From assembly GCF_947493565.1 (NCBI RefSeq), contig NZ_CANLRG010000006.1, positions 186,001 through 250,000 of the forward strand: a DNA stretch of 64,000 nt, in the 5' to 3' direction. The stretch is from an uncultured Lutibacter sp. Lineage in GTDB: Bacteria; Bacteroidota; Bacteroidia; Flavobacteriales; Flavobacteriaceae. Under the pieces are notes generated by a model that had not been told where the DNA came from, ran no database searches, and saw only the letters and a program-made list of their open reading frames with translations. Made by a program: the position numbers and the translations under genes. Positions within the stretch are counted from its first letter, which is position 1, and every line of letters starts with the position of its first letter. Shown piece after piece: positions 50,096 to 56,232 of this stretch.

Positions 50096-52546
50096 TTAAT
50101 AAAGTTTGTTATATTTTGAAGGGTTAGCTTCGTGCATTATTTGGTAAATAGCTTCAAAAATATCTTCAGCATTTGGTTTAGAAAAATAATCCCCATCTGT
50201 ACCATACGCTGCTCTGTGTTCTTTAGCGCTTAAAGTTACTGGCTTGCTATCTAAATATTTATACGCATCTTGTTTTTCTAAAATTTCGTTAAGTAAATAG
50301 GCTGAAGCTCCACCAGGAACATCTTCATCTATAATTATAATTCTATTGGTTTTTTGGATGCTTTTTACAACATCTTGTTTAATGTCAAAAGGTAGTAAAC
50401 TTTGTGCATCAATTATTTCGATATCAATATCAACCTGATTTAATTTACTTACTACATCTTCCACAATTTTTAAAGTTGAACCATAAGAAAGTACGGTAAT
50501 ATCTTTTCCTTCTTTAATGGTTTCAACAATGCCGATAGGAGTTTTAAACTCTCCAAAGTTGTTTGGTAATTTTTCTTTTAAACGGTATCCATTTAGGTTT
50601 TCAACAATAAGAGCAGGTTCGTCACATTCTAATAAGGTGTTGTAAAAACCAGCAGCTTTAGTCATATTTCTTGGAACTAAAATATTCATTCCTCTTAATA
50701 AATGTACAATAGCGCCCATTGGAGATCCAGAGTGCCAAATACCTTCTAGTCTATGCCCTCTAGTTCTAACAATTAAAGGAGCTTTTTGTTTACCTGCTGT
50801 TCTATAGTGTAGGGTAGCCAAATCATCACTCATAATTTGTAAGCCATAAAGTAGATAATCTAAATATTGAATTTCGGCAATTGGTCGAAGACCTCTCATT
50901 GCCATTCCAATTCCTTGTCCAATAATTGTAGCTTCTCTAATTCCAGTGTCTGAAACTCTTAATTTTCCATATTTTTCTTGAAGTCCAACCAAACCTTGAT
51001 TTACATCACCAATATTACCTGAATCTTCACCAAAAATAAACACATCATTATATTTAGAAAAAATACAATCAAAATTATCTTTTATAATAATTCTTCCATC
51101 AACTAATTCAGGGTTCTCATTATAAGTAGGTAATACTTCTTTTACATGAAATACATTTTTATCGGTAGTGCTATTTAAATGAGAACTAAATCTTGGTTGC
51201 TCTGTTTCAAAATAATTAGTAATCCAGTTTTGCAGTTGTTTTTTTTCAGAAGAGCTTTCATTTCTAACGTAAATAATAGCATTTCTTGCCGTTGATAAAA
51301 GATCTTTTCTTGAAGGATCACTGATAGCAGTTAAGTCGTTTTTAAGTTTTGAAATAAAGGATTTATTATTACTTTTTGAGGCTAGATTTTCTAATAGCTG
51401 AGCTAAAATACTTCGTTGTTGTTTTATTGGGTTTAAGAAGTTATTCCACGCTTCTCTTTTAGCTTGATTAACTTCTTTTTTTGCATCTTTTTCAATTCGA
51501 ATTAAAGCTTCCTCAGAATCTACAAATTTTAATACGTTATCATTTTCATCAGTAAGTTCAAATTCAATAATCCAGTCACGCATTTTAGAAATACAATCAT
51601 GTTGTTTTTCCCAAATCAATCGTTCTTTAGATTTATAACGTTCATGTGACCCAGAGGTAGAATGTCCTTGTGGTTGTGTTAAATCTTTTACATGAATTAA
51701 TACTGGAACGTGCTCTTCACGAGCAATTTTAGATGCTTTTGAATAAGCCTCTACTAATTGTGGATATTCCCAGCCTTTCACTACAATAATTTCATATCCA
51801 TCAGTATTTTCATCTCTTTGAAACCCTTTTAAGATTTCAGAGATACTTTCTTTGGTGGTTTGAAATTTTGCAGGCACAGAAATTCCATAATCGTCATCCC
51901 AAACACTAATAATCATAGGAACTTGTATAACACCTGCTGCATTAATGGTTTCAAAAAACACACCTTCAGAAGTACTTGCATTACCAATAGTTCCCCAAGA
52001 AACTTCATTTCCATTATTGGAGAATTTTGAATTTTTTAATTCAGGAAGGTTACGGAACATTTTTGAAGCCTGAGCAATTCCTAACATTCTAGGCATTTGA
52101 CCTGCTGTTGGTGAAATATCACTACTCGAATTGTATTGTTCTGTTAAATTTTTAAATTGTCCTTGTTCATCTAAGCTATGAGTTGCAAAATGTCCTCCCA
52201 TTTGGCGTCCACCCGACATAGGATCTTCATTAATACTTGGATTTGCATATAACCCTGCAAAAAATTGTTGAGGTGTTAATTCGCCAATAGCCATCATAAA
52301 TGTTTGATCTCTGTAATATCCCGATCTAAAATCACCTTTTTTAAAAGCTTTTGCCATAGCTAATTGAGGAACTTCTTTACCATCACCAAAAATCCCAAAT
52401 TTTGCCTTTCCAGTTAAAACTTCTCTACGTCCTAAATAACTACATTCTCTGCTTATTACTGCTATTTTGTAGTCTTGAAGTACTTCTTTTTTAAATTCTG
52501 AAAAAGATAATTGTTGATGGCTTGTAGATGAAGATTTTACAGTCAT
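50096..52546 (-). CDS. Fused alpha/beta 2-oxoacid dehydrogenase E1 component
   Basis: The 816-residue protein joins both E1 chains of a branched-chain or related 2-oxoacid dehydrogenase. The alpha half shows GDGKEVPQLAMAKAFKKGDFRSGYYRDQTFMM near 54-85, SPTAGQMPRMLGIAQ, and the TPP segment GNASTSEGVFFETINAAGV near 190. The beta half begins near residue 490 with VFIFGEDSGNIGDVNQGL and includes DTGIREATIIGQGIGMAMRGLRPIAEIQYLDYL and VPGGASAYLLNE. E2 and E3 genes are not in the window. It faces the same metabolic step as the neighbouring ferredoxin enzyme but with NAD as acceptor. It has its own promoter and terminator. Confidence 0.92.
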   Translation of the reverse strand: MTVKSSSTSHQQLSFSEFKKEVLQDYKIAVISRECSYLGRREVLTGKAKFGIFGDGKEVPQLAMAKAFKKGDFRSGYYRDQTFMMAIGELTPQQFFAGLYANPSINEDPMSGGRQMGGHFATHSLDEQGQFKNLTEQYNSSSDISPTAGQMPRMLGIAQASKMFRNLPELKNSKFSNNGNEVSWGTIGNASTSEGVFFETINAAGVIQVPMIISVWDDDYGISVPAKFQTTKESISEILKGFQRDENTDGYEIIVVKGWEYPQLVEAYSKASKIAREEHVPVLIHVKDLTQPQGHSTSGSHERYKSKERLIWEKQHDCISKMRDWIIEFELTDENDNVLKFVDSEEALIRIEKDAKKEVNQAKREAWNNFLNPIKQQRSILAQLLENLASKSNNKSFISKLKNDLTAISDPSRKDLLSTARNAIIYVRNESSSEKKQLQNWITNYFETEQPRFSSHLNSTTDKNVFHVKEVLPTYNENPELVDGRIIIKDNFDCIFSKYNDVFIFGEDSGNIGDVNQGLVGLQEKYGKLRVSDTGIREATIIGQGIGMAMRGLRPIAEIQYLDYLLYGLQIMSDDLATLHYRTAGKQKAPLIVRTRGHRLEGIWHSGSPMGAIVHLLRGMNILVPRNMTKAAGFYNTLLECDEPALIVENLNGYRLKEKLPNNFGEFKTPIGIVETIKEGKDITVLSYGSTLKIVEDVVSKLNQVDIDIEIIDAQSLLPFDIKQDVVKSIQKTNRIIIIDEDVPGGASAYLLNEILEKQDAYKYLDSKPVTLSAKEHRAAYGTDGDYFSKPNAEDIFEAIYQIMHEANPSKYNKLY

Positions 52547-52703: not shown

Positions 52704-55508
52704 TTAGTAGAAACCTCTTCTAATAAAATTGTATATTTTTTTAGGTTTAATTACTAAAACAAATCTAATTTTAGAGCTATAGCTAGGGTCGGTAATTTCC
52801 CACCCTAAATTGGAATAGAAAGGAAAATAAACTTCTAAAATATCAGGTACAAAATTAAGACGTATTCCATTCTCATAAGCAAAATAAGCACTTTTCCCTT
52901 TGTTTTTTACAAAACCTATATCGTTATAAACCTCAAGCCATCTCCATAATCCTACGCTAGTGTTTATAGTGCTTAACCATTGGTTTGCATATGCAACTGG
53001 GAGTTTAGATTTAAATCCTCCTTCATTAATAATTATTTGCTGACTAAGAATACCTGTGGTTTCAGATCTACCTAAATAATCGTATTGAAATAAATAATCT
53101 GTTGGTCTATCTAAAGCAAAATCAAAAAAGTTAGTTTCGGTTTTATTAGTTAAAAATGCGCCAGCAAAAAATCTGAAATCAAACTGTCTATTAGCATCCG
53201 TCAAGACTCTATATTGACCTGTAAGTGATACTTTGCTAAATTTATTAGCTACTTGCATATTTGTTGAAAAGCGAACATCATTTATAATACCTGGTTTGGA
53301 ATATCCAAAACCAAAATTAAATACATTGTATTTATTGGTTTCGGGATGTTGATCTAAAGTAGGTGTTTTTTCCCTGTCTATAACTGTATATGAAGCTCCT
53401 AAAACTTTGCTTTCAACATCTCTTAAATTTTTTCTTTTAAACTCTAATAATGCATAGTTTGTTAAAGTATTATAGGTTAAATTTTCAGCGTAGTGATAGC
53501 TAACTCCAGTTATACCTGCAGAAAATTTTTCAATTTTTTTATTTTCTGGCAAGTATTCATATTGAAAAGCAAAGGAGCCTGAAAATGAATTACTTTTGGT
53601 ACTATATGAAGGGGTTACTTTGTAATTAAAACTTTTTCGTAAAAGTGTTTTATTAGATATGGCAAGCCCTAATACTAATCCGTCATAATAATTATACCTT
53701 GCAACTGGGGTGTAAAAAAACTGATTATAATAAGGGTTTTCAATATCTTTTAAAAATTTTAATTGAAGAGGTCTGTTAAATATTTTTTTGTCAATATTTT
53801 TCCAGTTATTTCTTAAATTATATTCAGGTAAAAGTGATTCATAATTTAATGAAATACGATTAAAACCATCTTTTGGAATGGTTATTTTTTTTATTGAGTC
53901 AATATCAATTAACCATTTTTTATACTTTATTTCATCATCTTTAATCCCATAAAGCTGAATAGGTGTGGTAAAATTTCGTTTGTTAAAAATAGTAATTTCA
54001 AGCGAATCGTTTTTCTCTTTCACTTTTTGAATAGTATAGTCAACTTTTTTATTGGTTTTTATATAATCATTTTTAAACCAGTCAATATTTTTTTCGGTAT
54101 TAATTTCGTTAAAAAACAATAGACTTGTTGTCATTTTTCCAGTATATTTTTTGGAGTAATTTTTTATGGCATTTGTAATTATTGAATCTCCAACAAAATT
54201 TTCTAAATATTGTAAGCCTAGTCCAGCTTTATATTTATTTACTATTTTTCTGTTAAAGTTTGATAATGAATCTGCTTGAGTTGTTAATGCTTGATCTAAG
54301 TTTTTTCGAGCAGCAAATTGATAAACAAAAGGGTATTTTTGATTAAATGAAATTTTAGCTAAGTTAAAATTTCTTATGCCCCAAATTTTAGAAACAGTTC
54401 CTATAGCTTTTATTTCTGGGTAATATTTTTCAACATATTTGAGCATTAAATAAGTTTGTAGTCCATCAGCTAACCAGGCATCTTCTCTCATGTTAAATAA
54501 AAAAAGTTGATCAATGTATTTTTTAGATATTACTTTGAAGAGTTTGATGTCCCACTCAAAATTATCTGCATAAGGAGCTAAAAAGGAAGGTAATTGGTTA
54601 AATCCATACACAGGGTTTTTATCGTATTCAATTTTATTGACAAGCAATTTTTGATGCGGAAACTTACCTAAATAAGATTCGATAAAAGCGAGTTCTCTAT
54701 TTAATATATCTGTTTGAACAGTATTGTTTAATTTTTCAGAATTTAAATTTGTAATAATTGAAACAGGACTGGTATTGAACTGAATAAAGTCATTTTGAGA
54801 ACTGATATTTAATTCCATATCTAACTTGTGTTTTCCAGTTAATTTATAAACATTAATATTTTTTTTAACGCTTAGTGTGGTTTCTAAATCAGTATTAACT
54901 ACATAATCAAAAGGAGTTAATAAATCAATTTCGTAATTGGAATAATCAATATACAAATCGTCCATATCCAAATTACTGTAAGTTTTCCATCCATTGTTAT
55001 AAATTGCAGGTGCTAAATACCAGTAGCGCAAATTATAAGTATATATATCTACACCATAATTTGTAAATTTATCTTTGGGTATTTTTACCGTGTAAGTTGC
55101 GTTAATTTTTACCGATCCGTTTAAATGAAGAGGTTCTTTTAAGCTAATTTTAATAATATCAGGTTGATTTTCTGATGTTTCCCAATTGCTCAATTCATAA
55201 TCAACAGAAATACTTTTAATATTGGTATGCCCTCGATGTTTTTCATTAGCGAAATGAAATGATTTAGAATAGTTTTCAATAAATCGTTTTGCTAAGGGTG
55301 TATTTTTATCTTTATAAGCATTTGGCCAATTATGAAGATATATTTCATTTAAAATTTCACCAGAGTTATTGTAATACGTTATGCTTTGTTGAATTCTAAG
55401 TTCTTTATCATAAGGGTTGAAAATGGCATTTATTTTTATAGTATTAGTTTGAGAATACAAAGTATTCAAACAAACCAAACATAAAATTAAAAATAATTGC
55501 TTTTTCAA
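52704..55508 (-). CDS. Degenerate M1-peptidase domain fused to an outer-membrane beta-barrel
   Basis: The 934-residue protein has a signal peptide (MKKQLFLILCLVCLNTLYSQ). Residues about 25-480 resemble an M1 aminopeptidase: an N-terminal beta domain with WYLAPAIYNNGW, then VYGFNQLPSFLAPYADN. Where M1 enzymes carry H-E-x-x-H this protein reads ISKKYIDQLF, followed by NMREDAWLADGLQTYLMLKYVE, in which the usual E-G of the third zinc ligand is D-G. The zinc site is therefore missing. From about residue 600 to the end there are repeated amphipathic strands (FNYKVTPSYS, FSGSFAFQYEYLP) like an outer-membrane barrel. It follows the LOG gene by 13 nt. The catalytic loss is seen directly; function is unknown. 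Confidence 0.82.
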   Translation of the reverse strand: MKKQLFLILCLVCLNTLYSQTNTIKINAIFNPYDKELRIQQSITYYNNSGEILNEIYLHNWPNAYKDKNTPLAKRFIENYSKSFHFANEKHRGHTNIKSISVDYELSNWETSENQPDIIKISLKEPLHLNGSVKINATYTVKIPKDKFTNYGVDIYTYNLRYWYLAPAIYNNGWKTYSNLDMDDLYIDYSNYEIDLLTPFDYVVNTDLETTLSVKKNINVYKLTGKHKLDMELNISSQNDFIQFNTSPVSIITNLNSEKLNNTVQTDILNRELAFIESYLGKFPHQKLLVNKIEYDKNPVYGFNQLPSFLAPYADNFEWDIKLFKVISKKYIDQLFLFNMREDAWLADGLQTYLMLKYVEKYYPEIKAIGTVSKIWGIRNFNLAKISFNQKYPFVYQFAARKNLDQALTTQADSLSNFNRKIVNKYKAGLGLQYLENFVGDSIITNAIKNYSKKYTGKMTTSLLFFNEINTEKNIDWFKNDYIKTNKKVDYTIQKVKEKNDSLEITIFNKRNFTTPIQLYGIKDDEIKYKKWLIDIDSIKKITIPKDGFNRISLNYESLLPEYNLRNNWKNIDKKIFNRPLQLKFLKDIENPYYNQFFYTPVARYNYYDGLVLGLAISNKTLLRKSFNYKVTPSYSTKSNSFSGSFAFQYEYLPENKKIEKFSAGITGVSYHYAENLTYNTLTNYALLEFKRKNLRDVESKVLGASYTVIDREKTPTLDQHPETNKYNVFNFGFGYSKPGIINDVRFSTNMQVANKFSKVSLTGQYRVLTDANRQFDFRFFAGAFLTNKTETNFFDFALDRPTDYLFQYDYLGRSETTGILSQQIIINEGGFKSKLPVAYANQWLSTINTSVGLWRWLEVYNDIGFVKNKGKSAYFAYENGIRLNFVPDILEVYFPFYSNLGWEITDPSYSSKIRFVLVIKPKKIYNFIRRGFY

Positions 55509-55521
55509 AAGAGGGAGGTTT

Positions 55522-56232
55522 TTAAAAGTTAGGACTTAAACTATATTTTTTATAGAATGTATCAATAACTTCTAATACTTCTTCTTCAGTATCTACAAGT
55601 GAAATTAAATCTAAATCTTTAGGGCTAATATTCCCTTCATCAATTAAAGTGTTTTTTATCCAATCAAATAAACCAGCCCAAAACTTTCTTCCAACTAAAA
55701 TTATTGGAAATTTTCCTATTTTTTTGGTTTGAATAAGTGTGATTGCCTCAAATAATTCGTCCATAGTTCCAAAGCCACCAGGCATAACTACAAACCCTTG
55801 TGAGTATTTTACAAACATTACTTTTCTAACAAAAAAGTAATCAAAATCTAAACTTTTATCAGCATCAATATAGGGGTTGTCATGTTGTTCAAAAGGGAGT
55901 TCAATATTTAATCCAACAGAGGTTCCTTTTCCTCTGTTTGCCCCTCTGTTACCAGCTTCCATAATTCCAGGCCCTCCACCAGTAACTACTCCATAACCGT
56001 GCTTTGTTAATTTGTAAGCTATATTTTCTGCTAGTTTATAATAATGATGATCTTGTTTGGTTCTTGCTGAACCAAAAATACTTACACAAGGTCCAATTTT
56101 ACTTAAACGTTCAAAACCTTCAACAAATTCTGCCATAATTTTAAAAATAGCCCAAGAATCGTTGGTTTTAATTTCATTCCAAGTTTTTTGTTTAAATTTT
56201 TCTCGTATTTTTCTATCTTCGTTAGGAGTCAT
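55522..56232 (-). CDS. LOG-family protein (TIGR00730)
   Basis: The 236-residue protein belongs to the lysine-decarboxylase-like LOG family, whose tested members are nucleoside 5'-monophosphate phosphoribohydrolases. The motif GVVTGGGPGIMEAGNRGANRG is near residues 82-102, and FVVMPGGFGTMDELFEAITLIQ (P-G-G-x-G-T-x-x-E) near 149-170. It is not a decarboxylase. It lies 60 nt after uvrA and 13 nt before the M1-like gene on one strand. Confidence 0.92.
   Translation of the reverse strand: MTPNEDRKIREKFKQKTWNEIKTNDSWAIFKIMAEFVEGFERLSKIGPCVSIFGSARTKQDHHYYKLAENIAYKLTKHGYGVVTGGGPGIMEAGNRGANRGKGTSVGLNIELPFEQHDNPYIDADKSLDFDYFFVRKVMFVKYSQGFVVMPGGFGTMDELFEAITLIQTKKIGKFPIILVGRKFWAGLFDWIKNTLIDEGNISPKDLDLISLVDTEEEVLEVIDTFYKKYSLSPNF

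Follow-up and report, generated by a model that had tools for sequence, protein, structure and literature searches.

A family-wide M1-peptidase fold without its zinc site, joined to a putative Omp85-like barrel, in Lutibacter and other Flavobacteriaceae

The 64,000-nucleotide stretch of DNA analyzed here (the window) belongs to an uncultured Lutibacter sp. (contig NZ_CANLRG010000006.1, positions 186,001 to 250,000) and encodes, on its minus strand, a protein of 934 amino acids (P0001; positions 52704 to 55508) in which, judging from its open reading frame (ORF), translation and fold, a pseudo-M1 peptidase is fused to an Omp85-like barrel. The ORF has 934 codons and a TTG start, and the plus strand of the same interval is stop-rich. 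The interpretation favored here, at slightly better than even odds (roughly 0.55), is that this protein descends vertically from a Bacteroidota fusion between an M1 peptidase and an Omp85-like barrel and is its catalytically dead form, and that its peptidase part would bind clients for the barrel without cutting them, in an assembly or receptor role. Fold, loss of the site, common descent and constraint can be read from sequence and model; the type of the barrel is reached indirectly.

Against the Pfam Peptidase_M1 model the protein scores 16.3 bits, under the cut-off of 27.7, while NCBIfam gave no match to it and sequence searches of the PDB returned nothing usable. The fold is recovered from structure. 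A full-length AlphaFold2 model built from 27 sequences, with a mean predicted local distance difference test (pLDDT) score of 72.1 and 202 residues below 50, was aligned by VIA-align over residues 20-593 to the M1 aminopeptidase 3q7j (Z 21.4, root-mean-square deviation 3.3, 420 residues, 12% identity), and thus has the fold of the N-terminal and catalytic domains of M1 enzymes. By this comparison and by alignment with active relatives, the M1 fold occupies residues 21-560 (53829 to 55448, minus strand), consisting of an N-terminal beta domain, a helical catalytic-like domain and a beta-sandwich domain.

The alignment with active relatives is ungapped across the HExxH helix, and places HEVGH opposite K325-V-I-S-K329 (54522 to 54536, minus strand), so that zinc-binding and catalytic residues are replaced. 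The glutamate acting as third zinc ligand corresponds to D348 (54465 to 54467), and the substrate-binding motif GGMEYP (GxMEYP in general form) to PVYGFN, residues 299-304 (54597 to 54614). Neither the HExxH...E zinc site nor the GxMEN/GxMEYP motif of active M1 enzymes is present. An alternative zinc site is also ruled out, HExxH, HxxEH and HxxxH being absent from the entire chain, and no histidine of the M1 part reaches 90% conservation across 61 Flavobacteriaceae rows. Landmarks of the fold persist around the lost site, with NMR..W opposite SNER..W of active enzymes and ADG/DGLQTY opposite DEG/DEGxN. The preliminary description, made from the letters of the window alone, had claimed a zinc helix without histidine or glutamate at the ligand positions, an aspartate as third ligand and surviving landmarks, and had named a model without peptidase fold or an intact zinc site elsewhere as what would overturn it; the alignment and the model bear out each of these claims.

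The site-less state is conserved within the family. Families are referred to by analysis labels (f1, f2, f73 and so on), f1 being that of the window, which its named relatives indicate to be Flavobacteriaceae; the genome is a relative of Lutibacter, whose named strains show 64 to 70% identity. Among the close loci, 30 of 31 span the zinc site and none of the 30 has HExxH, and D348 is kept in 24 of the 31 rows, window included. A profile search of 249 genomes sampled from the family (235 genera) recovered orthologues in 242, at E <= 2e-76, part of these matches being partial at contig ends (e.g. in genomes G161 and G079). The other seven genomes gave weak matches only (four) or none (three), and a further search of five of them yielded nothing at 1e-30. 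HExxH occurs in none of the 93 family rows inspected (92 distinct), which comprise the 61 rows of the f1 set (60 distinct, loci L019 and L035 being identical in sequence), 29 of the 30 most diverged loci, these spanning the site, and loci L157, L160 and L161. With the exception of the diverged set, loci are mostly the best-scoring matches of each search. Two loci were excluded from later sets, the partial L022 and L021 (Lutibacter sp. UBA8495), the latter a frameshifted or misassembled copy, interrupted by 49 stops in the chosen frame, amid otherwise intact relatives. As for the window gene, a local pseudogene or a sequencing artefact is ruled out by its open frame together with the family-wide conservation of the site loss.

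Beyond the family, the same fusion is found with an intact site in other Bacteroidota, which the preliminary description could not see from the window. All 19 best-scoring loci from outside the Flavobacteriales (L072-L090) carry HExxH and keep HEVGHNWF...WMDEG and GGMEYP, in proteins of mostly about 1000 amino acids, and a class-level search gave a match in 264 of 295 genomes. The active set, which includes these 19, has HExxH in 33 of 33 rows, membership being defined by that motif. Within the order, the fetched loci are intact in f75 (one), f76 (two), f81 (four), f84 (two) and two of the three from f85, and site-less in f2 (seven), f73 (two), f74, f82 and f83 (one each) and f77 (sixteen).

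Quick IQ-TREE searches, with support from the Shimodaira-Hasegawa-like approximate likelihood ratio test (SH-aLRT) only, place these states in order. A 74-row tree was built without the catalytic-site columns and rooted on four HExxH-bearing fusions of another class of the phylum (f87). In it the 39 site-less rows fall into a single clade nested among active rows (SH-aLRT 99); its sister is the intact f75 protein L127, followed by f84. These 39 were taken from the site-less rows then in the set, and the long-branched L155 (f83) was excluded. An unrooted tree of 76 rows likewise requires one change. The sampled tree contains one loss of the zinc site, apparently an old one that is common to whole families.

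The gene neighborhood agrees with this history in one intact relative. Downstream of the window gene, on the same strand, lies a gene that is presumably 2-oxoacid dehydrogenase-like (50096 to 52546), and in the f75 region L180, that of L127, its counterpart (65% identity) is found about 90 bp downstream of the active fusion. The same gene accompanies the fusion in 10 of 11 distant Flavobacteriaceae regions (L156-L166), the exception being the second copy of genome G049, and also in f82 (L170) and in f77 region L172, and it stands about 2 kb off in f77 region L175. It is not beside the fusion in f2 (L168, L169), f73 (L194), f74 (L167, where the LOG-like gene is present), f83 (L195) and f77 regions L171, L173, L174, L192 and L193, nor beside the active genes of f76, f81 and f84 (L176-L179, L191) and of ten regions from outside the Flavobacteriales (L181-L190). 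At the profile level, the barrel matches that of the barrel-fused M1 peptidases in hhalign with E 1.8e-86. The two-part architecture and common descent with barrel-fused M1 peptidases are thus found by profile searches, the rooted tree, the L180 neighbor and the barrel comparison; from the tree and the neighbor shared with one intact relative, the window protein looks like a catalytic loss in an orthologue of the active fusion.

That the gene is a paralogue whose genome also holds an active barrel-fused copy was considered and set aside, the five M1 matches over the Pfam cut-off in the window's own genome being in frames of 546 to 814 amino acids, with the window gene not among them. When 100 genomes of the family were searched with the active profile, the second matches listed covered the profile only to about 630, that is, without the barrel, except in G049. 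This genome has two site-less barrel-fused copies (L160, L161), one in the conserved neighborhood and one elsewhere. Three of the 16 f77 genomes, all of one genus (G624, G690, G699), hold an intact copy (L139, L133 and L135, respectively) as well as a site-less one (L138, L132 and L134). The intact copies group apart from other Flavobacteriales in the tree, and G624 has an additional intact-like copy in pieces (contig C203). One of the three fetched f85 loci, L117 (genome G586), is site-less and branches inside the Flavobacteriaceae, the other two being intact; it may be due to contamination or transfer.

The barrel named in the preliminary description is seen in the models. The last 350 residues fold into a barrel in which 15 strands are clear; a model of the barrel only (mean pLDDT 68) has a short 16th as well. 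On the evidence of model, Foldseek and profile chain the Omp85-like part is placed at residues 581-934 (52707 to 53768, minus strand). Strands 1-11 are followed by a long low-confidence loop, residues 789-841 (DYLFQYDYLGRSE...EGGFKS; 52986 to 53144), and then by strands 12-15 and, in the barrel-only model, the 16th. From its place in the strand order, this loop is taken to hold the position of Omp85 loop 6. The literal loop-6 motif (V/I)RG(F/Y) is absent, and a conserved GRSE...GGFK loop occupies the corresponding place, within the wider pattern DY..DY..GRSE..G..SQQ....GGFK. Within the barrel, G783, G881 and P896 are identical in 74 of 74 rows, D863 is found in 39 of 39 site-less and 18 of 31 active rows (with glutamate in 10 more), and R814, in the loop, in 36 of 39 and 31 of 31, being absent at that column from the four f87 rows.

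Two lines of evidence connect this barrel to Omp85. The first is fold, since the barrel model gave 571 Foldseek matches at E <= 10, of which the 50 listed, the best at E 2.3e-6, are entries for BAM, TamA or SAM (one of them, 5ayw, is presumably of this type), and its best VIA-align partner is a SAM entry (Z 16.4), so that on a model of pLDDT 68 both programs indicate an Omp85-type fold. The second is a chain of profiles passing through f87. In hhalign the f87 barrel is matched by the active barrel at 97% (E 6e-11; reversed control 0.1%) and by the site-less barrel at 96% (E 8.6e-9; reversed control 2.7%), and itself matches Omp85 at 95% (E 2.3e-8; reversed alignment 0.1%, 25 TonB receptors 0.7%). 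The f87 profile connecting the two ends rests on four sequences; the Omp85 profile is a 30-sequence alignment of PF01103 proteins of this class, with L238, from the genome of the window, at its head. No Omp85 match was obtained from Pfam in three f87 proteins scanned, and in the window's own genome PF01103 is found at two places, neither of them the window gene. By fold and by the chain through f87 the barrel appears to be Omp85-like, and it is likely a further protein of this kind overlooked by the Pfam model.

A rather unlikely alternative, although the best surviving one, is that the barrel is an ordinary one for transport or anchoring, the dead M1 part serving in the periplasm as plug, gate or ligand-binding module for the uptake of peptides or other nutrients and having no share in assembly or secretion. 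M1 folds are generally known to bind peptides, VIA-align separates TonB receptors and porins (Z 14 to 15) from Omp85 proteins (16.4) by little, and the direct profile match of the site-less barrel is equally weak to Omp85 and to TonB receptors. The identity of the 50 listed Foldseek matches, and the f87 profile, which matches Omp85 and not TonB receptors, speak for an Omp85-like barrel instead.

Constraint on the M1 part bears on a second alternative, an improbable one, namely that this part is in decay and persists just as a spacer or as a handle that targets the barrel to the membrane. Ratios of nonsynonymous to synonymous substitution rates (dN/dS), from 47 pairs with dS under 1.2 among 19 sequences, have medians of 0.114 (N-terminal domain), 0.092 (M1 core), 0.095 (remaining M1 part) and 0.075 (barrel). 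On codon evidence, this shows purifying selection on the apparently dead domain, and values of about 0.1 do not suit a spacer. Neither do the fetched copies, which mostly keep open frames over 900 amino acids, or the motif PxYGxN that replaces GxMEYP and is 92 to 98% conserved across the 61 f1 rows. In its favor are the mean entropies, which mark the N-terminal domain of Flavobacteriaceae as less conserved than the other parts: the 61 rows give 2.00 for this domain, 1.69 for the core and 1.56 for the barrel, and the 33 active rows 1.29, 1.20 and 2.26, the order alone being informative because one set covers a single family and the other many. Constraint has moved, the peptidase part being the most conserved in active rows and the barrel in f1 rows.

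That the protein is still an enzyme with an altered mechanism, for instance one using lysine in place of the first histidine, is the least probable alternative, for although K325 is found in all 61 rows that make up the first f1 set and 22 of the 29 most diverged, and position 348 is D or E in 59 of the 61, K325 is missing from the other 7 diverged members and from f2, f74, f77 and f83, the GxMEYP motif is lost as well, and other site-less families have different residues at the site. A salt bridge between K325 and D348 replacing zinc was likewise rejected as a rule, given that diverged members pair K325 with G, S, A, N, Y or H at 348 and that only 24 of the 31 close relatives have D348. A charge pair of another kind occurs at the former zinc site of f77, where E329 and R348 are found together in 6 of 16 rows.

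In the favored interpretation, that of a dead orthologue of a peptidase-barrel fusion, the barrel is inferred to be embedded in the outer membrane and the M1-like domain to project into the periplasm, at the position usually taken by POTRA domains. The preliminary description had left the domain at the cell surface or in the periplasm; the periplasm, not the surface, is the side expected from Omp85 topology. Its suggestion that the domain may have become a binding or assembly module agrees with the findings. On the periplasmic side, POTRA domains take in the clients of Omp85 barrels, and M1 domains bind peptide N-termini within a groove. The ancestral enzyme may have bound the polypeptides that reach the barrel and perhaps also trimmed them. 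Cutting would then have been lost in this lineage, with client binding and hand-over retained, leaving the M1-like domain as a putative receptor or assembly platform with a presumed link to assembly or secretion; intact orthologues may trim clients where the dead form may merely hold them. Only tentatively can this be widened to an undescribed branch of Omp85 in Bacteroidota with an M1 peptidase replacing POTRA, that is, an assembly or secretion device that would trim clients in most lineages, act as a non-cutting receptor in Flavobacteriaceae and their neighbors, and be part of a near-universal envelope-building set.

Several observations weigh against this interpretation, beyond the small f87 profile and the unequal entropy sets mentioned above. 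Direct profile comparison with Omp85 is not significant for the site-less barrel (1.7%, E 0.029; TonB receptors 2.1%) or for the active barrel (0.6%, E 0.1), and all rows combined give a weak direct match (16%, E 0.0015), in register across the loop and the last strands. Pfam gave zero matches in 28 barrel rows, a TonB receptor (Z 15.2) lies roughly one Z unit behind the best SAM entry in VIA-align, and pLDDT is low in the conserved loop, with model averages of 72 and 68. The dN/dS of the M1 core ranges from 0.051 to 0.583, with one pair at 0.58, and synteny with an active gene is found in a single region, L180. In the literature searched, in which subscription journals are thinly covered, neither an Omp85-type barrel carrying an M1 peptidase nor this pseudo-peptidase was found described. 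Finally, the subunits BamG-K, BamM and BamP have been named in Bacteroidota (PMC12611786, PMC12578637), and in the main text of these two 2025 cryo-EM studies of the BAM complex the word peptidase occurs 0 times, so that the protein, if it acts in assembly, would probably be a device that is separate or transient.

The ends of the protein and the upstream genes complete the description of the locus. Residues 1-20 (MKKQLFLILCLVCLNTLYSQ; 55449 to 55508, minus strand) resemble a signal peptide in sequence and form a low-pLDDT helix at 2-16 in the model. Past the last strand the sequence ends in a RRGFY tail (52707 to 52721). The tail was excluded as a mark of the site-less clade, [RK]RG[FWY][YF] ends being found in just 17 of 61 f1 rows, in 15 of 16 f77, 5 of 7 f2 and 1 of 33 active rows (L127); many of the remaining f1 rows have a basic-aromatic tail of the type R[RKQ]W[FY] instead. 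At 13 bp upstream and on the same strand lies an ORF (55522 to 56232) that is a conserved neighbor and that we take to be LOG-like, followed further upstream by what is presumably uvrA. The LOG-like gene and the pseudo-M1 gene possibly form an operon.

A family-wide pseudo-peptidase with intact-site relatives close by offers a clean natural experiment in the turning of an enzyme domain into a binding module and, if the Omp85 assignment is true, the protein would be an unrecognized Omp85-type protein in a phylum whose outer-membrane assembly is now being worked out. Compared with known systems, it shares domain order and fold over residues 20-593 with the M1 (gluzincin) aminopeptidases (tricorn factor F3, ERAP/IRAP, LTA4H, PepN), and differs from them in the replaced zinc ligands, catalytic glutamate and GxMEN-type motif and in the fused barrel. 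Reuse of an M1 fold as a structural or binding module has a parallel in TAF2/TAF150 of TFIID, which we take to be M1-like and without known peptidase activity; this protein is eukaryotic, nuclear and barrel-free. The intact barrel-fused M1 peptidases of Bacteroidia are orthologous fusions that align over their full length and have the same conserved barrel loop. They mostly measure about 960 to 1040 amino acids with Peptidase_M1 as their single significant Pfam match, and differ in keeping HEVGHNWF...WMDEG and GGMEYP, from which they are predicted to be active. To Omp85/TpsB proteins (BamA, TamA, Sam50, FhaC and the patatin-type PlpD) the likeness lies in the barrel fold found by Foldseek, the large loop between strands 11 and 12 and the presence of an N-terminal domain ahead of the barrel. 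POTRA domains are not universal in the Omp85 superfamily, as PlpD illustrates; the window protein has no Pfam match to them and carries an M1 fold instead, with its barrel below Pfam Omp85 detection. The Omp85 survey of Heinz and Lithgow (2014) distinguishes ten subfamilies, among them 'Metallo', reported to be conserved at genus level only, in which the barrel is joined to a domain called a metalloprotease (PF00149) and which is discussed as acting in periplasmic quality control or, if translocated, as a virulence factor (PMC4104836). The word peptidase does not appear in that survey, and the domain of the window protein belongs to another family, M1 (PF01433); 'Metallo' is the nearest published idea, built on a different domain.

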